Source of the DNA: a virus
DNA: 25,348 bases
Reading direction: 5' to 3' (one strand)
Virus record (IMG/VR): IMGVR_UViG_3300044527_000493
Coordinates: 1-25,348 of that record
Shown: piece after piece, positions 5,361 through 25,348 of the stretch
Layout of the letters: the number at the start of each line of letters is the position of its first letter
Numbering within the stretch: position 1 is the first letter of the stretch
The notes under the pieces: model-generated
Told to the model about the DNA's origin: nothing
Database searches by the model: none
What the model saw: only the letters and a program-made list of their open reading frames with translations
Made by a program: the position numbers and the translations under genes

Positions 5361-6111
5361 GGTCGTCGAATAGCTTGCCGATTCGGGAGCCAGAGACGCA
5401 GCAATCGATAGGTATGTCGCGTCGAGACAGTTCACGAAAGACTTCGCGTTTAATAGCGTGTAGGGCCAGCATGACACTGCTGGCTTCTACCACTCGGCCC
5501 ATCCTTCCAGATCGCAGGTTGTTCAGTGTCTCCTCGGCTGCAATTTCCTCCGCTGTCTTGCCTTCTTGTCTTTTTGCAACAATCCACCTTGACCTTGGCT
5601 CCATCTCCGCTAGTATTGAAGTCACTACTCCAGCAAGTTCGTCTACTTCGCTGTGGTACTCGTCCTCGTAGATGTTGCTTTCTTTGTTTTCGGCTAACAC
5701 TGCTTTTACATTGTCTTCGTCAATGAGAAAAGAATTTGTTTCCGAAGAGTAGGCCATTGGTATTCGTTTGCCGAAGGTGCTACTTGTCTTCACCACGTAG
5801 TCAGAACACTTCCTTGGGATGACGCGAGAGAAGAACGATGAAAGTCTTCCCTTGGCAGGATCAAAATTCTTTATTGCTAAATAGGCTTGGCACATTGCTT
5901 CGTTGAATAGTTCGTCCGTGTTGACTTGAGGAGGCTTGGGGTGATTATGGCAGAGGGTCCAGATCCAGTGTGCCTGAGAGCACAACAGTATTTCGATTGC
6001 TTTTTTATCGCCGCTCTTTGCTTGTTCGTAGTATTGGCTTTCTTCCAGAGGGGTTAATCTCTTGGCTTCACGACCTGCTAAAAAATCTGCGACAGGATCT
6101 ACTTTCTTCAC
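5326..6111 (-). CDS. Sigma-70-family RNA polymerase sigma factor, phage-encoded
   Basis: 261-residue sigma factor that would redirect host RNA polymerase. Region 2 is clear: DELFNEAMCQAYLAIKNFD followed by PAKGRLSSFFSRVI (about residues 66-98), matching the DLxQEGxxGLxxAxxxFDPxxGxxFxxYA pattern. A region 4-like part lies near 165-225 (ILAEMEPRSRWIVAKRQEGK, then EEIAAEE). Between them is an acidic linker. The start is a GTG (6109-6111) with a consensus AAGGAGGT 6 nt upstream, about the strongest SD in the window. It is transcribed against the flanking genes; its 5' end overlaps the recombinase start by 50 bp and its 3' end overlaps the acetyltransferase by 35 bp. It may control late genes or lysogeny; cognate promoters were not identified. 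Confidence 0.85.
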   Translation of the reverse strand: MKKVDPVADFLAGREAKRLTPLEESQYYEQAKSGDKKAIEILLCSQAHWIWTLCHNHPKPPQVNTDELFNEAMCQAYLAIKNFDPAKGRLSSFFSRVIPRKCSDYVVKTSSTFGKRIPMAYSSETNSFLIDEDNVKAVLAENKESNIYEDEYHSEVDELAGVVTSILAEMEPRSRWIVAKRQEGKTAEEIAAEETLNNLRSGRMGRVVEASSVMLALHAIKREVFRELSRRDIPIDCCVSGSRIGKLFDDLNTDAQNRLFD

Positions 6112-6125
6112 AGAACGACCTCCTT
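6047..6125. promoter_or_regulatory. Overlapping divergent translation-start region (two strong SDs)
   Basis: On the + strand AGAGGGG (6047-6053) lies 8 nt before the recombinase TTG start (6062). On the - strand AAGGAGGT (6118-6125) lies 6 nt before the sigma GTG start (6111). The first 50 bp of each gene are therefore antisense to each other, and each promoter must lie inside the other gene. Antisense interference between the two transcripts follows as an inference. Confidence 0.75.
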
Positions 6126-7738
6126 GCGTTGTTGCGTATTGCCGAATCTCTGAGTCTGGGAGTGTACGAACATCTCTGAGCCCAGAAACACAGGCAGATA
6201 GATGTGTACAGTATAAACATTCTAAGCTCGCAGGTGTACCTTGGTCAACCGATAGGTATCCAGAATCCGCACCTCCTGGCTTTTTTATTGACGCGGGAGT
6301 AAGTGCTTATGATAAGAATCATCTAAGTAAGCGCCCCGCTGGCTCCAAGTTGCTTGAGAGCTTACGGCCAGGAGATCATGTTCTCGTTTGGTCGGTGGAC
6401 AGAATGTTCCGCAACGTAGGTGACTTTGGTACTACGATCGATCTGTTTCGTCGCAAAGGCATTCTTGTTCACTTTATCAACGACGACATTGATTTGAGTA
6501 GTCCTAGTGGACAATTGAAGGCGGCCCTACTGGCTGTGCTTGCAGAGCACTTCTCGCGCATGCTTGGCTTCCGAGTGAGGGAAGCTGCGGCGATTAAGCG
6601 ACTAAAGGCAGGTAAGGGCATCAAGTCGGCACGTAGCACACCCAAGTCTATTAGGATGGAGGAGGTGTCTAAGATCAGGGAGGGTGATCTGCCAAGCAAG
6701 ATACTATCTCCATACGCAAAGCCAAAGAAGCAGGTTCAATCGCTCAAGCGTGTTTGGGGTTACATTCGCGTTTCATCAGATGGTCAGCTAGAGAGTGGCT
6801 TGGGTTTAGCCAATCAACGGATGAGAGTTGAGGAGGAGTTAGCCAAGTACTCTGAGAGCGAGTGCATGGGGGTTGTGGCTGACGAGGCGGTGTCTGCGTT
6901 TAAGGTTCCCTTCGATCAGCGCCCAGGTGGCAGTAGATTCTTGAAGGAAGCAAAGCCAGGAGATTGTTTAGTTGTTTACCGTGGAGACCGTATCTTTCGT
7001 TCGCTCAAGGACATGGCCAATACAGTGGCTATGTTGAGGAAGAAGGGTTTAACGCTAAGGCTGATAGAAGAGAACATCTCTACCGACAGCACTGACTCAG
7101 ACTGGTACCTAAGTCTGGTTACAATGTTTGCGGAACTAGAAAGCAAAATCAAGTCAGCAAGGGTTGTGGAGTGCTTCTCGCGTATGAAGCGTGAAGGTCT
7201 CTGCTACACTGAGCCTCATCGATTCATGCTCTACAAAGGTGTTAAGTGTGGCAATCAAAGCAGGTACATCGTTGACTGGGCAAGGGCGGCTAGGTTTCAA
7301 ATGGCGATGACTGTACGACGAGAGTACGGGTTCAAGGGCACGCACTCCTGTGCTATCGTCAATGCAATCACTGCTCAGCAAAAGGGCATTAAGCCAGCGG
7401 TGTATGCGATCAAGGGAAGATTGAGTCGCAAGGATGTGAGGACCAAAAGGGTCAAGCCAAAGTATACGCCTTTATTTAATCGTCAGGTCACTTCGGTCGA
7501 AAACATCTGGCCTCAGTTCTTGGACTCAATCGGTGCCGTGGGAGCCAAGCGATTGAATAAGATAGCCAGAGATCAGTTGGCAACAAACATCTCGCAACTC
7601 AGCCTCGCTTTCCTGAAGCGGTCTGGGGTACCTATGGATCGACTCACACGGTACTTCGTTGTTTGTGGTGTCGACGCCAGAGTTCCTCTCGACAGTATGC
7701 CGAGTGACAATCTTTTGGCTACGGCTCAAGATCTTTAG
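6062..7738 (+). CDS. Two-headed serine recombinase (tandem resolvase catalytic domains)
   Basis: 558-residue protein with two resolvase/invertase catalytic domains in series. Domain 1 (about 22-180): VVAYCRISESG with R28 and S30, SKRPAG (R91), VWSVDRMFRN (D113, R114, R117) and the SPSGQL turn. Domain 2 (about 230-380): VWGYIRVSSDGQ with R236 and S238, DQRPGG (R287), VYRGDRIFRS (D309, R310, R313). All hallmark catalytic residues of the family are present twice. Domain 2 lacks the SGQL turn, having TDSTDSDW instead. A basic linker of about 50 residues separates them, and a C-terminal domain of about 170 residues, basic and without an obvious zinc ribbon, follows. The start is TTG at 6062, supported by AGAGGGG 8 nt upstream; no ATG precedes domain 1. 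Serine recombinases normally carry one catalytic domain and act as tetramers. Integration/excision of the phage is the likely role, DNA inversion or resolution an alternative. Confidence 0.9.
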   Translation: MASRPAKKSATGSTFFTERPPCVVAYCRISESGSVRTSLSPETQADRCVQYKHSKLAGVPWSTDRYPESAPPGFFIDAGVSAYDKNHLSKRPAGSKLLESLRPGDHVLVWSVDRMFRNVGDFGTTIDLFRRKGILVHFINDDIDLSSPSGQLKAALLAVLAEHFSRMLGFRVREAAAIKRLKAGKGIKSARSTPKSIRMEEVSKIREGDLPSKILSPYAKPKKQVQSLKRVWGYIRVSSDGQLESGLGLANQRMRVEEELAKYSESECMGVVADEAVSAFKVPFDQRPGGSRFLKEAKPGDCLVVYRGDRIFRSLKDMANTVAMLRKKGLTLRLIEENISTDSTDSDWYLSLVTMFAELESKIKSARVVECFSRMKREGLCYTEPHRFMLYKGVKCGNQSRYIVDWARAARFQMAMTVRREYGFKGTHSCAIVNAITAQQKGIKPAVYAIKGRLSRKDVRTKRVKPKYTPLFNRQVTSVENIWPQFLDSIGAVGAKRLNKIARDQLATNISQLSLAFLKRSGVPMDRLTRYFVVCGVDARVPLDSMPSDNLLATAQDL

Positions 7739-8168: not shown

Positions 8169-8198
8169 TCTTGTGGCAGTTGGAAAGATATGCGGAGA

Positions 8199-18563: not shown

Positions 18564-18866
18564 ATGAGTCCTGATGTCAAGTATGAGCTAGAGAGTAAGG
18601 TGGCTGCGTTTGCTGCTGTCAGTGGAGCGGACAAGGGATCTGTGGTTGGTAATCTTGCCAAGCTAATTCTGGAGATTCTAGAAAAGAGTGCAGGCATTGA
18701 TGCTGAGAAGATGGTGTCATTCTGTGGAGAACTGTACGACAAGTACATCGCTCCGCTGGATCTTCCAGGTATTCCTGATGTCATGGAAGTCATGGTTGAT
18801 AAGGTACTGAAGTCGACGCTGGAATCGATCATTCGCAAGGCTCTTAGTGATTTGAGGGCAGTGTAA
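18564..18866 (+). CDS. Small helical hypothetical protein
   Basis: 100-residue protein with GGAG about 9 nt upstream of ATG 18564. It is helical and moderately acidic: AFAAVSGADKGSVVGNLAKL followed by ILEILEKSAGIDAEKMVSF, then LPGIPDVMEVMVDKVLKS. It has no clear TM segment. Its stop overlaps the next start (TAATG), so it is coupled to the lipoprotein gene, which marks it as the first gene of the envelope-like cluster. Function unknown. Confidence 0.6.
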   Translation: MSPDVKYELESKVAAFAAVSGADKGSVVGNLAKLILEILEKSAGIDAEKMVSFCGELYDKYIAPLDLPGIPDVMEVMVDKVLKSTLESIIRKALSDLRAV

Positions 18867-19279
18867 TGAAAGCCATGCAGGGAGTGTTTCAGGTCGGCAT
18901 GATCGTGGCGATTATGGGATTGATTGGCTCATGCATGCAACTCAAGACTATTCCTCAGCCTGAAGTTGAGGAGCCAGTGATTGAGGTTGTCGCAGAGCCA
19001 GATCCTATCATCGATGTTCAGCCAGAGATTATTTCGGATCCTAAGCCAGAAAGCCAGGACGGGACGATCGTAATGTACACACGAGACGGGTGTGTTTGGT
19101 GTGAGCGATGGAAGCAAGTTGAGCTACCGAAAGTATTGCGGTCGTTCTGGAAATTTCGTGAAGTGTATACGAGCGAAGGTCCAGTACCTAGATTTGAGGT
19201 TTTCGGTAGAGGCAAGGCTATTTCACACACTGGCTACATGGATATGCCTACATTGCGTCGAATTGTGGATAGCATGTAA
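18866..19279 (+). CDS. Lipoprotein-like glutaredoxin/thioredoxin-fold protein
   Basis: 137-residue protein. Residues 5-23 form a signal-like hydrophobic stretch ending LIGSC, a plausible but non-ideal lipobox with C23 as the lipidated cysteine. Residues 28-66 are a Pro/Glu/Asp-rich linker (PEVEEPVIEVVAEPDP). The C-terminal domain begins IVMYTRDGCVWCERW, a glutaredoxin-like strand and CxxC pair (C76-V-W-C79), and has a later DMPTLR resembling the cis-Pro turn. It would act outside the cytoplasmic membrane as a disulfide reductase or isomerase. The start overlaps the previous stop. An export-anchored redox protein within a phage late operon is unusual. Confidence 0.75.
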   Translation: MKAMQGVFQVGMIVAIMGLIGSCMQLKTIPQPEVEEPVIEVVAEPDPIIDVQPEIISDPKPESQDGTIVMYTRDGCVWCERWKQVELPKVLRSFWKFREVYTSEGPVPRFEVFGRGKAISHTGYMDMPTLRRIVDSM

Positions 19280-19294
19280 TTACGGATAACGCCA

Positions 19295-19915
19295 ATGGCT
19301 TTAACGGATCCAGATATGGGGCCAGTCTCCATTACCCAAGCGGGTGCTGTGCGGCTGTGCTCCGACATGCCAATAGGTATGGCAGCGGTCACGAAAGAAG
19401 GTAGGTTTCGATGGGTGAATACATCGATGTGTCGATGCCTGGAGTACACCGAGGGTCAGCTTCTCTCCATGGTTCTTGGAGAGATAACGCACGAAAAGCA
19501 CCTGACAGTGGATCGGGATCTGGTGGAGAGATTAAAGTCTGGCGAATTGACGAGCTACACGGTAGTCAAGGCGTTTCACAAGAACGGCTCACGACCGGAG
19601 AGGCCGAGGTATGCGTGGGGGAGCTTGACGGTGTTTCGGGAGCCAGTGATCGGAGAGGTTCAATTCTTTTGGATCTTCTTCGTTCCGCACAACGACATGA
19701 AGGAATCGGGAGTAGCGTCATGGAAGGACATGCTGATTTTCGTGAGAGACAATTACAAGTGGCTTGCGACGGTCATCGCCATTGCAATCGCGCTAGCTTC
19801 CGGCAACTATACGGCAATATCCGCACTGCTGAACAAGCAAAGCGTGATAGAGAAAGAGTTGCAAAGTGGTCCGCCTACGTCCTCCTCGGAATCTGCGTTG
19901 CCTCAACCGCAGTGA
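19295..19915 (+). CDS. PAS-domain protein with C-terminal transmembrane helix
   Basis: 206-residue protein. Residues about 20-132 form a PAS fold: CSDMPIGMAAVTKEGRFRWVN, then EYTEGQLLSMVLGEITHEKHL, then VERLKSGELTSYTVVKAFHKNG and QFFWIFFVPH, in the usual strand/helix order. Residues 155-178 are a TM helix (WLATVIAIAIALASGNYTAI), followed by a Gln/Ser-rich tail. No histidine kinase, GGDEF or other output domain follows, so the TM helix itself may be the effector, for example as a holin or anchor. The likely cytoplasmic N-terminus is inferred. The SD is weak (GGAT region). Its last 196 nt hold another gene in a different frame (19720-19971). Confidence 0.75.
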   Translation: MALTDPDMGPVSITQAGAVRLCSDMPIGMAAVTKEGRFRWVNTSMCRCLEYTEGQLLSMVLGEITHEKHLTVDRDLVERLKSGELTSYTVVKAFHKNGSRPERPRYAWGSLTVFREPVIGEVQFFWIFFVPHNDMKESGVASWKDMLIFVRDNYKWLATVIAIAIALASGNYTAISALLNKQSVIEKELQSGPPTSSSESALPQPQ

Positions 19916-19971
19916 CTCTACTGATTACTTATCTTCTGTGGCTACGATTGGATCAGATAGCGAGTAGGTAA
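19720..19971 (+). CDS. Nested small transmembrane protein overlapping the PAS gene
   Basis: 83-residue ORF in another frame, starting inside the PAS gene and ending 56 nt beyond it. GGGAG (19708-19712) lies 7 nt before the ATG, a better SD than that of the host gene. Residues 1-50 are polar and basic (RTAEQAKRDRERVAKW), then a single TM helix (SAYVLLGICVASTAVTLLITYL) and a short LRLDQIASR tail. The stop TAA overlaps the next ATG. The frame is open further upstream to 19411 but without obvious protein character. The layout resembles small phage lysis proteins such as holin or spanin components; the nesting recalls Rz/Rz1, though the topology differs. It is real by SD, TM and coupling; function inferred. 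Confidence 0.6.
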   Translation: MEGHADFRERQLQVACDGHRHCNRASFRQLYGNIRTAEQAKRDRERVAKWSAYVLLGICVASTAVTLLITYLLWLRLDQIASR

Positions 19972-20436: not shown

Positions 20437-20453
20437 TCACAATGAGGATGCTT

Positions 20454-21437
20454 ATGTCGAGACGAGACAGGATCATTGACGAGGTTATTGACAAGTTTCC
20501 TAATGTCGGCAATAGGACACTAGCAAGATTGCTAGTTGAGCAATACCCAGAGCTTTACACTATAGAACGGGCTCGACATTCCATTCGATATCGCTTTGGT
20601 GCTACTGGAAGCAGGGACAGGAAAAAGGTTAATGTTTGCGAGCACAAAAAGCACTGTTCCTTGCAACTGCCTCCTGGCATCAATCAGGTCAAGAAACCTC
20701 TGAAGTTAAATCAGCCAGGGGATTGGCTTGTCATAAGCGATCTGCATATTCCATATCATGACGAAATTGCGATCGAAACGTGCATAAGGTACGCAGTCGA
20801 TAAGAAGATAAAGAATCTTTACCTTAATGGCGATTGCGTTGACTTCTACAAGTTCTCTGATTTTGTTGTTGATCCGAGGCAGTCTAGTCCTAGCAATGAA
20901 CTGGAACTACTGAAGGTTTTTCTTAAGAGCCTGAAGAAACAGTTTAAGGGCAAGGTCATCTATAAGATTGGGAACCACGAGGATAGATACGAAAGATACT
21001 TGTATCAGCGTGCCAGTGCTGTGGTGGGTATTGAGCAGTTTGAGTTAGATAAGGTTCTTGGTTTGGGTGATCTTGGTATTACATGTGTCTCATCTAAGCA
21101 ACATTCTATCGTCGGCAATCTGTGTGTATTTCATGGGCACGAGCTTCCTAAGGGTATGACATCGCCTGCTAATCCAGCGAAGTCTTTGTTTACTAGGACA
21201 GGCTGTAGCGGCGTCGTCGGTCATCATCACTACTTGTCTCACTGGTGCATGACGGAGGGGGTTCGCAAGGTAACTCACAATACGTACTCCATCGGTTGTC
21301 TTTGCAAGCTGGTTAAAGATTACTCGCCAGTCAACAACTGGAATCATGGATTCGGTCACGCAAGGGTGAACGGTAAGAGAAAGACCGAGTTCAGAAATTT
21401 CCTTATCGATCGTGGTCAGATTGAGTGTCAGTTCTGA
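20454..21437 (+). CDS. Metallophosphoesterase (calcineurin-like) with N-terminal HTH-like domain
   Basis: 327 residues from ATG 20454 (GAGG about 5 nt upstream; in-frame ATGs at 20442 and 20448 lack an SD). The two-metal phosphoesterase motifs are all present: ISDLHIPYHD (D96, H98), LNGDCVDFYKFSD (GD), IGNHEDRYERY (GNHE), CVFHGHE and VGHHHYLSHW. The first 50 residues (RIIDEVIDKFPNVGNRTLARLL) look like a helix-turn-helix or small helical domain, an unusual addition. Calcineurin-like phage enzymes can act on nucleotides, phosphorylated nucleic acid ends or phosphoproteins; the substrate cannot be inferred here. It sits inside the envelope-like cluster. Confidence 0.85.
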   Translation: MSRRDRIIDEVIDKFPNVGNRTLARLLVEQYPELYTIERARHSIRYRFGATGSRDRKKVNVCEHKKHCSLQLPPGINQVKKPLKLNQPGDWLVISDLHIPYHDEIAIETCIRYAVDKKIKNLYLNGDCVDFYKFSDFVVDPRQSSPSNELELLKVFLKSLKKQFKGKVIYKIGNHEDRYERYLYQRASAVVGIEQFELDKVLGLGDLGITCVSSKQHSIVGNLCVFHGHELPKGMTSPANPAKSLFTRTGCSGVVGHHHYLSHWCMTEGVRKVTHNTYSIGCLCKLVKDYSPVNNWNHGFGHARVNGKRKTEFRNFLIDRGQIECQF

Positions 21438-21473: not shown

Positions 21474-21722
21474 ATGGAATACTTTCCTTATGTAATAGCT
21501 TGCGGTGGTTTGATACTTATCGCATCGTCGATGATTGATCTTTCTAAGATCAAGAGCTACTTCGCGAAAGACAAGCAGCCAGTGGCTGATGTGACTGATT
21601 TGCTGTCAGAGTACATTCGCATTCGAAAGATACTTGTCGTCAAGCTAGACGCAACCAAGATGGCTGAGGTTGATAAGTCAGTGCTTGATGAATTCACGGA
21701 GGGCTCGGTTAATGGTAAGTAG
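21474..21722 (+). CDS. Small single-TM protein
   Basis: 82-residue protein with AGGGGGA about 5-8 nt upstream. Residues 5-22 form a TM helix (PYVIACGGLILIASSMI), followed by a basic then helical charged tail (DLSKIKSYFAKDKQP, LLSEYIRIRKILVVKL). It overlaps the next gene by 11 nt. The size and single TM fit a holin-like or membrane-anchor accessory protein. It is next to another TM-anchored protein. No family recognised. Confidence 0.65.
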   Translation: MEYFPYVIACGGLILIASSMIDLSKIKSYFAKDKQPVADVTDLLSEYIRIRKILVVKLDATKMAEVDKSVLDEFTEGSVNGK

Positions 21723-22113
21723 AGGTGGGGCCTTCTGGGGTGGTGTTTTGCTGCTCGTGGCTGCGGTTTTGTTTGCCTCTGGTAAAGGCAAGATCGACAT
21801 CAGCCCAGTCGTCAAGTACGACAAGGTTGATTTCGTTTTAATGGAAGAGACGAGTCAGCCAGATGTTGATACAGCGATCCTAGTCAATAGTGATAAGTGG
21901 CAGTCTTTGGCTGATCGCGGTGTTTCAGTTAAGAGATATGACGTTACTAAAGATGCCAGGAAGCCAGAGGTTGAGAAGTTCCTTGGTAATATGGGAACTG
22001 CGAAGCCTCCTGTGATCTTGGTGTATGAGGCGGGTGGCAAGCTGGTAGGCATTGAAGCGTCTCCATCACTGGCTTCTCTTGATGCTTTAGTCAAGAAATA
22101 CACAGGGAAGTAG
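21712..22113 (+). CDS. TM-anchored thioredoxin-fold-like protein without CxxC
   Basis: 133 residues from ATG 21712, with GGAGGG 7-8 nt upstream; the frame extends to 21670 but lacks an SD there. Residues 8-23 form a TM helix (FWGGVLLLVAAVLFAS). The domain that follows has YDVTKDARKPEVEKFLGNM and KPPVILVYEAGGKLVGI, like the helix and the cis-Pro strand pair of thioredoxins, but no CxxC is present: the redox site is replaced, with NSDKWQSL at about the corresponding position. It would be a non-redox thioredoxin-like adaptor or a diverged fold. It lies just before the cysteine peptidase gene, 2 nt apart. Confidence 0.6.
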   Translation: MVSRGGAFWGGVLLLVAAVLFASGKGKIDISPVVKYDKVDFVLMEETSQPDVDTAILVNSDKWQSLADRGVSVKRYDVTKDARKPEVEKFLGNMGTAKPPVILVYEAGGKLVGIEASPSLASLDALVKKYTGK

Positions 22114-22115
22114 TC

Positions 22116-22913
22116 ATGGCTAATGAAATCATAGAGTATCAAGGCAAGCTGTACGGTACTGGCTTGATTCAGCCGGTCAATCGTGTAAGCGGCTATCGTC
22201 TGTTTATGGACGAGAAGCCAATGTTGACTGGTGAGCAGGTCAATAAGGTTATCTCGGATCCTAGCCGTAAAAGTGGTCGAAAGCGATTTGGTTCTGACTG
22301 GATCATGTCTCAAAAACACCTTGGAGCCTGTTGTGGCTTCGCTTGTGCAGGTGGTGGGGCTCGTGCTCGCGTTCGTCGCGGCCTGCCTCGTAAGGCTCTG
22401 AGTGGCTTTGCCATGTACTCAGCGATCAATGGTGGGGTTGATCGGGGTGCTTTGCTGAAGGATGGCATGGAATGGATGATGCGTCACGGAATCCCAGAGG
22501 CTATTGCTGGTGAGAGGCCAGAGTACCGCTGGGGTCGGATCCCTCAAGTGCAGAAGGATTCGATGGCATCCAATGTGATGCTTGAGTGTTATGCGATGGA
22601 GACAGAGCTTGAGTTGGCAGTTGCCTGCGCCCTTGGCTTCGATTGCATTATAGCGGTTCACGCATCCAATCGCTGGAGCAATCTTGATAGCAATGGCATT
22701 TCTGGTGAGAGTCATGGCGTTGGTAATCATGCAGTGCTTGTCGATGATGTAGTGCTGTCTAGTTCTGGTGAGTGGTTGTTTGACATGGCAAATAGCTGGG
22801 ATGTTAGCTGGGGCCAGCAGGGTCGTTCGTATCAGACTTGGCGACGGCACCTATCTCAGACGATTAAGTATCACCAGTTCTTTGCAATCCGATCAACAGT
22901 CGATGGAAAATAA
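22116..22913 (+). CDS. Papain-like (C1-type) cysteine peptidase
   Basis: 265-residue protein with AGGGAAG upstream. The papain set is visible in order and with correct spacing: Q66 five residues before C72 (SQKHLGACCGFA; papain Q19 and C25 have the same gap), the catalytic-histidine strand GNHAVLVDDV (H205), and MANSWDVSWGQQG (N226, W228), the Asn-Ser-Trp-x-x-x-WG signature. It lacks a signal peptide and a long inhibitory propeptide; residues 1-60 are an N-terminal extension. Phage C1-like peptidases are known but uncommon. Roles to weigh: envelope degradation, virion maturation, or attack on host proteins. It follows the TM-anchored thioredoxin-like gene by 2 nt. The catalytic set makes activity likely. 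Confidence 0.85.
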   Translation: MANEIIEYQGKLYGTGLIQPVNRVSGYRLFMDEKPMLTGEQVNKVISDPSRKSGRKRFGSDWIMSQKHLGACCGFACAGGGARARVRRGLPRKALSGFAMYSAINGGVDRGALLKDGMEWMMRHGIPEAIAGERPEYRWGRIPQVQKDSMASNVMLECYAMETELELAVACALGFDCIIAVHASNRWSNLDSNGISGESHGVGNHAVLVDDVVLSSSGEWLFDMANSWDVSWGQQGRSYQTWRRHLSQTIKYHQFFAIRSTVDGK

Positions 22914-22924
22914 GGGGATGAGTT

Positions 22925-23293
22925 GTGCCTAATGCAGTGCGAAAATTTGGTGAGTTGACGGTCAAGCCTAAGGCTTCGATCTTTCGCGATTACGGCTGGG
23001 CTAATGTTACGATTGCCAATGCTGGTGTCACGAGCGGGTCGATTGATATAGGGCCAGCGGACTCTGTGATGTTGGTTCTGCCTGCCGGTGTCAACACAAA
23101 GACCATCACGATGCAGACAACCTATGATGGCACGACCTGGATTGATCTGGTTTCGTGGACGGCAGCGACTGGCATTAAAGTGTTCACGGATGCGACAGAG
23201 CTTGCGAAGATCCGTCATGCTCAGGTTACTCGTTTTACGGTCAACTCCGCAGTGGGCGCGGACTCGAAGATATGGATATCCATCAAGGGTTAA
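22925..23293 (+). CDS. Small beta-rich virion-like protein
   Basis: 122 residues from GTG 22925, with AGGGG upstream. It is Thr/Val/Ala-rich with alternating pattern (WANVTIANAGVTSGSIDIGP, VMLVLPAGVNTKTITMQTTYDG and a C-terminal ADSKIWISIKG), consistent with a beta-sandwich domain such as those on phage surfaces. It lies before the tail-fibre-like gene, so a tail or baseplate accessory is a reasonable guess. No family recognised. Confidence 0.55.
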   Translation: MPNAVRKFGELTVKPKASIFRDYGWANVTIANAGVTSGSIDIGPADSVMLVLPAGVNTKTITMQTTYDGTTWIDLVSWTAATGIKVFTDATELAKIRHAQVTRFTVNSAVGADSKIWISIKG

Positions 23294-23491
23294 CTCGCTT
23301 CGATCATATTCAAATTGCAGTGAGTAGGCTGCTGGCGGCTATTGTGTTTGCAGAATCACAATGGATGCTTTCAAGTCTTGCTTACAGTCGCAACGCTGTT
23401 TTATTGAGGGTCTCTATTGATACGCTTTTCTGGCTACTGTTCAAGCAGTCTTGCCATTGTCAAGAAAACTACAAATGGGAATTAGAGTTCA
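23294..23491. other. 198-nt gap before the tail-fibre genes
   Basis: An ORF of 82 codons (23272-23520) crosses this gap but starts inside the previous gene without an SD and looks unlike a real protein. No convincing promoter (a TTGCTT with weak -10 only), hairpin or repeat was found. It could carry a promoter for the fibre genes. Confidence 0.4.
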
Positions 23492-23791
23492 ATGATCGAT
23501 CTAACCAAGCTAACAAGTGAACAACTCTGGGGTTTGCAGTTCGTTGTACTGCAAGCCAACGCACCTATTCAAGCAGCAAACGAAGCCCTGCCAGAAGGTG
23601 AAGAACCCAAGCCACTATTCACCGATGCAAGCTACGCTGAAATGATCTTCAAGTCAGCTTGCGATTCGTACTATCAACAACTTGTTGAACACAAAAAGAA
23701 GTCTGCTTTGCAGATGTTTGATTCTTTAACGCCGGAACAACAAGCGGCACTTGTTCAGCAACTTCAGATTCCAGACGTTTTACCTCAATAG
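23492..23791 (+). CDS. Small hypothetical protein before the tail fibre
   Basis: 99-residue protein from ATG 23492 with an AGAG-type SD. It is helical, Gln/Glu/Ala-rich (FVVLQANAPIQAANEALPEG and EQQAALVQQLQIP). The start SEQLWGLQFVVLQANA and the location directly upstream of the fibre gene could fit a tail fibre assembly or baseplate helper, but nothing in the sequence proves that. It ends 10 nt before the fibre start. Confidence 0.6.
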   Translation: MIDLTKLTSEQLWGLQFVVLQANAPIQAANEALPEGEEPKPLFTDASYAEMIFKSACDSYYQQLVEHKKKSALQMFDSLTPEQQAALVQQLQIPDVLPQ

Positions 23792-23801
23792 GTATTAAGC
23801 T

Positions 23802-25348
23802 ATGTCGCTTGGCGTTATCTCTCCGATCCGCAACAAAGGTCTGTACTCTGATTGGCTATCTGCTGCACCTCTGGCTACATCGATGCTTACTATCGACACC
23901 AGCGGGAATGTCGGTAGCCAAGCTATTCCTGTTGCGGCATGGGGGAGTATCACCGGAACGCTAAGCAGTCAAACCGATTTGCAGAATGCGTTAAATGCGA
24001 AGTTGTCGCTTTCGGGCGGGACTTTAACAGGGGCATTAAGTGGTACAAGTGCTACGTTTAGTAATACCATAACCGGAAACTCACTAAGCCTCACCGCTTA
24101 TCAGTGGATTTCATGGGGAGGTAACGCCTTTTTAACCGCAGATCCGGGTATTGGTTTAAGGGTTAATAACGCTGCCATTCAACAAATAAGTTTTCTAAGC
24201 TTTGGATCTTCTCAGGATCTCCGTGTAGAAAGAGATGATGCAGATACCCTTGCCCTTCGTCGATCAACCAACGCCCAACGCCTCAATCTATACGGCACCT
24301 ACACTGATGCTTCTAACTATCGACGACTCTACCTATCTAGCACTACAGCAGGTGCGTTTACTCTTGGCGTAGAAGGAGCGGGAACGGGTGCGAGTGGGAA
24401 TACTTTAACAGTGCCTAACGCCATGAGTGTTAATGGTACTCTTACCATGACCAACAGCGGTGGAGGAGGTTTAGGAAATATACAGGTGACAGGTGGGCAA
24501 TGGTGGCTGTATGCCGGAGGAACAGCCCAATTTCCTTTGTTTAATGTCAATGGTTACTATGGCATGACTGACGGAAATAATGGAGGATTGTCTTTCGGAT
24601 CAGGCAATGGGATTGCTTGGGCTAGCACAAGCACTGCGGGAGTACTAACTAGAAATAGTCTTGTAGCAGGCGATTTGTTTGTATACCGCAACGCTGCTGG
24701 TCAACTTGATATTCGTGGTAATAGCGGTTTGCGTGTTCGTAACGTAGCTAATTCTGCCGATGCCGCAATAACAGCAGGGGCGGGGACGTTTAGTGGAAAC
24801 ATCACAACAACCGGATATGTACAGGTTGGGGCGGATCAAACCAGACTAACCAATACTGGTATAACTAATTTTACATCTGGCACACAGTATCCTATTATTG
24901 AGTGGCAAGCGGGAACATCAATTCAGGCAATTATTATTTCTGGCTATGCCTATCGCGGTATTAACATTCAGCGAATTACAGGTGCGCAAACTTGGCTAAC
25001 CGTAAACTTAGAAGGTTCTAGTGCAGCGTTTGGTATAACACCACGGCAAGCGTTGGATGTTCGCGGCAATGCCATTATAGATGGTAATGTTGTATTGCAT
25101 CGATCTACTACTTCAACCAGTTTACAGATTCACAACACCTTCACCGACACCTCCAACTACATCCGTCAATCACTCTCTTTCACAACCTACTCCTCCACCG
25201 TCCATGCACAGCTAGCAGCAGAAGGTGCTGGCACAGGAGCAGTAAACGTACCGTTTGTAATTACGCCAAGGGGAACAGGTGCGTTTATCGTTGGGCCAAT
25301 GCCTGATGGTACTGCAACAGGCGGGAATGCTAGGGGTGCCGGTGCCGT
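23802..25348 (+). CDS. Tail-fibre-like protein, 3' end outside window
   Basis: 515 codons from ATG 23802, still open at the last base, so the C-terminus is missing. It is Gly/Ala/Ser/Thr/Asn-rich, with the classic fibre-head phrase LQNALNAKLSLSGGTLTGAL near residues 60-85. An internal module recurs: LNLYGTYTDASNYRRLYLSS near residue 165 and LQIHNTFTDTSNYIRQSL near residue 445, each followed by EGAGTGA. The end of the window (GPMPDGTATGGNARGAGA) resembles the lead-in to a conserved C-terminal trimerisation or chaperone region. It would form the receptor-binding fibre or spike. Codon and base choice differ from the virion genes, with more A- and C-ending codons. The SD is weak. Confidence 0.85.
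   Translation, partial: MSLGVISPIRNKGLYSDWLSAAPLATSMLTIDTSGNVGSQAIPVAAWGSITGTLSSQTDLQNALNAKLSLSGGTLTGALSGTSATFSNTITGNSLSLTAYQWISWGGNAFLTADPGIGLRVNNAAIQQISFLSFGSSQDLRVERDDADTLALRRSTNAQRLNLYGTYTDASNYRRLYLSSTTAGAFTLGVEGAGTGASGNTLTVPNAMSVNGTLTMTNSGGGGLGNIQVTGGQWWLYAGGTAQFPLFNVNGYYGMTDGNNGGLSFGSGNGIAWASTSTAGVLTRNSLVAGDLFVYRNAAGQLDIRGNSGLRVRNVANSADAAITAGAGTFSGNITTTGYVQVGADQTRLTNTGITNFTSGTQYPIIEWQAGTSIQAIIISGYAYRGINIQRITGAQTWLTVNLEGSSAAFGITPRQALDVRGNAIIDGNVVLHRSTTSTSLQIHNTFTDTSNYIRQSLSFTTYSSTVHAQLAAEGAGTGAVNVPFVITPRGTGAFIVGPMPDGTATGGNARGAGA

Follow-up and report, generated by a model that had tools for sequence, protein, structure and literature searches.

The gene at 22116-22913 (+ strand) of the viral DNA analysed here, a stretch of 25,348 bases that we call the window, encodes a papain-like (C1A-type) cysteine peptidase of a tailed phage, and the gene directly upstream of it encodes a membrane-anchored protein with a predicted thioredoxin fold and no redox-active cysteines. 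This partner-peptidase gene pair is conserved in phages of unrelated types and probably acts on the host cell envelope. The reading that we put first, at a probability of roughly 0.4, is that a C1A-type endopeptidase and its anchored or exported, redox-inactive partner would act late in infection and attack host envelope proteins at lysis.

The window and its late gene cluster

The window corresponds to a linear IMG/VR virus record that is probably a fragment. It overlaps with further IMG/VR contigs from the same phage; one of them, G001, matches it at 99.8-100% identity over most of the window's length. No tRNA or Rfam matches were found in its 25,348 bases. Nearly all genes from position 8190 to the end of the window are on the + strand, arranged head-to-tail as a late cluster, in which a probable scaffold, the major head protein (a match to PHROG 9953, E 2.7e-8) and terminase-like and portal-like proteins are followed by small membrane proteins, a metallophosphoesterase, the partner gene, the peptidase gene and a fibre-like frame. 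The portal proteins of the window and of contig L010, which belongs to a related phage and carries an ortholog of the peptidase, have a weak SU10-like match; the capsid, portal, terminase and PAS proteins gave no match among annotated phages. The features around the peptidase gene are the following:

20442-21437, late operon, just 5' of the cassette: metallophosphoesterase (PHROG 221, E 4.7e-39)
21474-21722, + strand: small one-helix membrane protein, 82 aa, whose gene overlaps the partner gene by 11 bases
21712-22113, + strand: partner gene, 133 aa, with an N-terminal membrane helix (residues 5-23) followed by a cysteine-free domain of predicted thioredoxin fold
22116-22913, + strand: papain-like (C1A-type) cysteine peptidase, 265 aa, ATG start, assigned from fold, conservation and selection
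22311-22331, + strand: codons 66-72, from the oxyanion-hole Gln66 to the nucleophile Cys72 (QKHLGAC), Q and C invariant in the alignment
22728-22730, + strand: codon of the catalytic His205, invariant in the alignment
22791-22799, + strand: Asn226-Ser227-Trp228, the NSW motif, invariant in the alignment
22925-23293, + strand: 122-aa protein downstream of the peptidase, start of the fibre-like region
23802 to the contig end, + strand late cluster: fibre-like open frame

The 82-aa membrane protein has a counterpart in the same place in L010 (35% identity) and possibly belongs to the same cassette as the partner and the peptidase. The 122-aa protein, for which no Pfam family was found, is outside the conserved cassette.

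Several other features of the window were observed. The DNA identity between the window and L010 is 60-77% inside the peptidase gene and 92-100% just 3' of it (window 22950-25348 against L010 21030-21734), a jump suggesting that the fibre region was exchanged recently and that the boundary of the exchange is near 22,970. The frames 19295-19915 and 19411-19971 overlap and are both open in the related phage (75% and 51% identity). One encodes a PAS-domain protein whose C-terminus is a membrane helix, the other a product that likewise ends in a membrane helix, and the two may be nested genes for lysis or for membrane proteins. The protein encoded at 18866-19279 is lipoprotein-like, carries a CVWC motif of thioredoxin type (PHROG 22, E 1.8e-4) and is distinct from the cysteine-free partner. 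At 6062-7738 a serine recombinase is encoded, a 558-aa chain with two Resolvase stretches.

Catalytic residues and selection on the peptidase gene

Q66, C72, H205 and N226, the last within an NSW motif, had been proposed as a complete papain-like catalytic set, and all of them were found at these positions of the ORF. A loose Q-x5-C...H...NSW pattern appeared by chance in 99 of 200,000 shuffles of the window protein, so that the motif by itself is suggestive only. We therefore also considered conservation: in an alignment of 16 sequences, 14 of which came from a profile scan of other viruses and are only 23-26% identical to the window protein, Q66, C72, H205, N226, S227 and W228 are unchanged. 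Taken together, motif, conservation and fold go far beyond chance.

The ortholog in L010 (20175-20993) is 76.5% identical and keeps every catalytic residue. The differences between the two genes at codon positions 1, 2 and 3 number 60, 39 and 132, and dN is 0.20 and dS 1.92 (dN/dS about 0.10). Judged by this comparison of sequences, the peptidase gene is under purifying selection and evolves as a protein.

The Pfam profile PF00112 (Peptidase_C1) scores the window protein at 11.3 bits (E 0.36), below the gathering score of 20.7, and several relatives lie above this cut-off (L021, 30.2 bits; L018, 29.9; L016, 21.4; L029, 32.3). The sub-threshold score is a matter of profile sensitivity; the defining features are the fold and the catalytic residues. 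In a sequence search of the PDB, plant and mite papains matched the window protein at E 0.03-1.3. A papain-fold protein that no longer cuts, and serves as a binding protein or in other thiol chemistry, would agree with the strong divergence of the window clade (a tree branch of 4.0 and a score below the Pfam cut-off) and with the residues after the nucleophile, where the CxW of papain is replaced by CCG in the window and by CNG in L010. However, Q, C, H, N and the NSW motif do not vary in the alignment, which is not expected of a dead enzyme, and we regard this reading as very improbable. We infer that the peptidase is enzymatically active.

Predicted structure of the peptidase

An AlphaFold2 model of the peptidase was built on the 16-sequence alignment (mean pLDDT 76.4, pTM 0.77). 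Foldseek returned 278 PDB matches to it at E<=1e-3, with xylellain (PDB 3ois) in first place (E 3.8e-10), followed by cathepsins K, S and B and plant papains; cathepsins K and S reached a TM of 0.69-0.71 of target. The PDB structural matches share about 13-20% identity with the window protein. The top match in a viral fold library was a Peptidase C1A of an uncultured Caudovirales (A0A6J5QDM8; 33% identity, TM 0.83). The original prediction had named a fold that is not papain-like as the outcome that would speak against it; the predicted fold is papain-like and, together with residue conservation, bears out a papain-like (C1) peptidase with a full catalytic set. The assignment of the window protein to the papain-type C1A class is secure.

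By sequence the peptidase matched only the C1 family, and by structure cathepsin-type C1 folds; no peptidoglycan hydrolase domain (lysozyme, amidase, M15, CHAP, NlpC/P60) was found in it. No prodomain was recognised in the window peptidase and it has no export signal, whereas its partner has such a signal or an anchor. The peptidase had no relative in two scans of GTDB, so that neither a prophage nor a host can be named.

The upstream partner

The partner gene of the window ends 2 bp 5' of the peptidase gene. The domain that follows its membrane helix was modelled with AlphaFold2 at a pLDDT of about 90 over residues 39-133, and thioredoxins head its PDB fold matches (E 1.4e-4); among the partners, this fold was modelled only for the one in the window. 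An ArsD structure is also among the fold matches, and the window copy has a sub-threshold ArsD match in Pfam. The window partner contains no cysteine, and CxxC is absent from all 16 partners checked, so the partner is not a thioredoxin-type reductase and a redox role for it was ruled out. No PHROG family or significant Pfam family was found for any partner tested.

Comparison of the window partner with the other partners by hhalign gave a weak match (probability 43%, E 2.4e-4), and its link to them rests on gene position and on the pattern LNSx...YDV...P-x-x-hydrophobic. Most of the other partners have an extra N-terminal domain, which is absent from the window partner.

Conservation of the gene pair among tailed phages

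At every C1 locus with upstream DNA to read, the gene directly 5' of the peptidase encodes an exported or anchored partner, the gap between the two genes is -4 to +10 bp, and the upstream proteins begin with a membrane or signal segment and resemble one another in their C-terminal domain. In a reciprocal scan from the partner alone, with a query that left the window out, the peptidase gene came next at 19 of the 21 loci found; this count includes L076 (= record G008), and the 21 loci include near-identical contigs and are thus not 21 independent cases. The two exceptions are L089, which has no peptidase, and L084, in which no intact frame was found.

The cassette is carried by podo-like, siphophage, myophage and huge-phage contigs, the last reaching 595 kb (LR756511). 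In one carrier, G014 (L038), the peptidase is fused to a helical protein that elsewhere comes after it. In the tree, the cassette peptidases form one group (support 99/98), apart from a xylellain-like C1 paralog and from the peptidase of phage THSA-485A; the window clade has a branch length of 4.0, which makes its exact position in the tree unsure. A second C1 peptidase, of xylellain type, is encoded elsewhere in several large carriers (L047 5667-6431, L049 5510-6340, L050 6266-7051), and among the genes scanned in the carrier G009 (L061/L062/L048) is one for a Trypsin_2 serine protease (E 2.2e-11).

The surroundings of the cassette bear on what the peptidase might do. In G003, a siphophage-like contig with an HK97-type capsid, a portal protein and an S78 prohead protease (PF04586, E 6.1e-18), the cassette adjoins fibre-type genes and the peptidase gene lies directly 5' of the major capsid gene. 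This position, together with the same-strand late operon that the window peptidase gene shares with capsid, terminase and portal genes, could mean that the enzyme is an intracellular protease that processes late phage proteins (capsid, portal, fibre or internal proteins). Prohead maturation is, however, disfavoured because G003 encodes its own S78 protease, and for this siphophage carrier it was rejected. Moreover, about 11.5 kb separate the peptidase and capsid genes in the window, the position of the cassette relative to head genes varies, and a processing role leaves the exported partner unexplained, so that we consider this role unlikely.

The fibre-type genes that adjoin the cassette in the window (22925-25348) and in G003, and the Baseplate_J gene that adjoins it in G009, would also suit a virion-associated entry protease, placed in the tail or fibre and cutting a surface-layer or outer-membrane protein at adsorption or penetration. 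A compact, soluble peptidase that has no export signal is consistent with such a role. Yet a virion role does not explain the constant exported or anchored neighbour, and no recognised tail genes adjoin the huge-phage cassettes in the stretches read; we rate an entry role as rather unlikely, although above a processing one.

Downstream of the cassette, huge phages encode large secreted proteins (L014 7004-9580, L016 7330-9183, L082 5965-8451), which carry single CxxCH motifs, like c-type cytochromes. Two of the CxxCH proteins were tested and had no PHROG family, and the one from L016 also had no Pfam family. Planctomycetes were considered as hosts, from the idea of a protein wall and from these CxxCH proteins of the huge-phage carriers, and were dropped, there being no sequence evidence for them; Planctomycetes possess peptidoglycan (PMC4432640).

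Search for peptidoglycan hydrolases in the carriers

Fifteen carriers, among them the 595-kb LR756511 and a 341-kb contig, were searched for nine families of peptidoglycan hydrolase; lysins of further families are known. Amidase_2, Phage_lysozyme, M15_4, SLT, Amidase_3 and M15_3 gave no match in the 15 carriers, and their positive controls were detected. GH19 and GH108 gave no clear match in the 15 carriers either, in searches run without a positive control, and M23 gave one clear match in LR756511 and two weak ones in G009. The late cluster had been described as having no obvious peptidoglycan hydrolase; this holds for the window, itself a fragment, and extends to the other carriers, most of which are fragments too, so that missing hydrolases may sit outside the sequenced parts.

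Proposed role of the pair

The earlier suggestion that the peptidase may act on host envelope protein or on virion proteins is plausible, and the exported neighbour favours the envelope. We infer a late cassette aimed at the host envelope from four pointers. First, an export signal or membrane anchor is present on the partner and absent from the peptidase. Second, the genes next to the cassette are of fibre, baseplate or membrane type. A third and weaker pointer is that six hydrolase families had no match in the 15 carriers. The fourth, although it comes from another branch of the tree, is that in the isolated phage THSA-485A the C1 peptidase gene begins 15 bp after the gene of a GH25 endolysin.

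In the proposed mechanism, the peptidase would be made with the late genes of a tailed phage, while the partner would be anchored in the inner membrane, or exported across it, and wait in the periplasm. Once the membrane is breached as infection ends, the soluble protease would gain access to envelope proteins (candidates are S-layer, outer-membrane and wall-linked proteins and membrane complexes), and their cleavage would help the cell to open. The partner may act as a docking, activating or substrate-presenting protein. Having no export signal, the peptidase would need a holin-like breach or would have to act inside the cell.

Some observations count against lysis. The secreted CxxCH proteins after the huge-phage cassettes could point to a function in envelope physiology, L089 has the partner but no peptidase, and the long branch of the window clade (4.0) and the weak partner match also weigh against this account. 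The pair might instead be a host-takeover or envelope-physiology cassette that remodels periplasmic or membrane proteins during infection (for example those serving in respiration, as receptors or in superinfection exclusion) and has no part in lysis. Besides the CxxCH-motif proteins, which L089 retains along with its partner gene, the CVWC lipoprotein-like protein of the window agrees with such a role; the CxxCH genes are, however, absent from the window and from G003, and the peptidase has no export signal. We judge this alternative to be quite unlikely, below both the entry and the processing roles.

If the pair does act at lysis, it would represent a protein-cutting exit route where an ordinary lysozyme or amidase is not seen. 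A bolder version of the lysis reading, which we hold to be as doubtful as the physiological alternative, is a proteolytic phage release module, in which a papain-type protease and a dedicated redox-dead docking protein of thioredoxin fold, membrane-anchored or periplasmic, would replace the peptidoglycan hydrolase in several unrelated lineages. Such a module, if true, would open hosts whose envelope strength rests on protein.

Comparison with known systems

Tailed phages were already known to carry C1A peptidases. With the papain family C1A (PF00112) and xylellain (3ois), the window protein shares the common fold, the Gln-Cys-His-Asn order and the NSW motif; it differs in scoring below the PF00112 cut-off and in having no recognised prodomain. 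Xylellain-type C1A peptidases are reported to have been acquired by Myoviridae and Siphoviridae (PMC10380794). The xylellain-type phage peptidases (PHROG 16701, 'peptidase'), such as that of Thermoanaerobacterium phage THSA-485A, belong to the same enzyme class and likewise occur in tailed phages; PHROG 16701 was matched at E 0.012 by the window protein, at 1.4e-4 to 8.3e-12 by its relatives and at 7.5e-84 by the THSA-485A peptidase. The latter groups with the xylellain-like paralogs, on a branch separate from the cassette clade in a tree with long branches, and an exported thioredoxin-fold partner has not been noted for these enzymes. The top viral fold matches, A0A6J5QDM8 and A0A6J7XQB9, are from uncultured Caudovirales and are annotated 'Peptidase C1A, papain C-terminal'. 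No assignment of a role for tailed-phage C1A peptidases was found in the papers searched.

The CHAP, NlpC/P60 and C39-like endolysin domains are of the papain-like clan and are cysteine-histidine hydrolases used at phage lysis; the N5 domains of some mycobacteriophage endolysins resemble the papain family (PMC3314691). These domains are, however, peptidoglycan peptidases of other families, whereas the fold matches of the window protein are C1 cathepsins, which cut proteins.

Judging by the libraries and papers searched, what is new is the exported, redox-dead partner of predicted thioredoxin fold and its conserved pairing with the peptidase, for which no report was found in the open-access literature. 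The pairing across phage types gives a genetic handle on the role of the peptidase and points to a partner family that has no Pfam or PHROGs match. The staphopain-staphostatin operons provide a parallel, since there too the gene of a papain-fold protease adjoins that of a small partner dedicated to it. Staphostatins are cytoplasmic beta-barrel inhibitors, in contrast to the partner in the window, which is exported or anchored and is predicted to have a thioredoxin fold.
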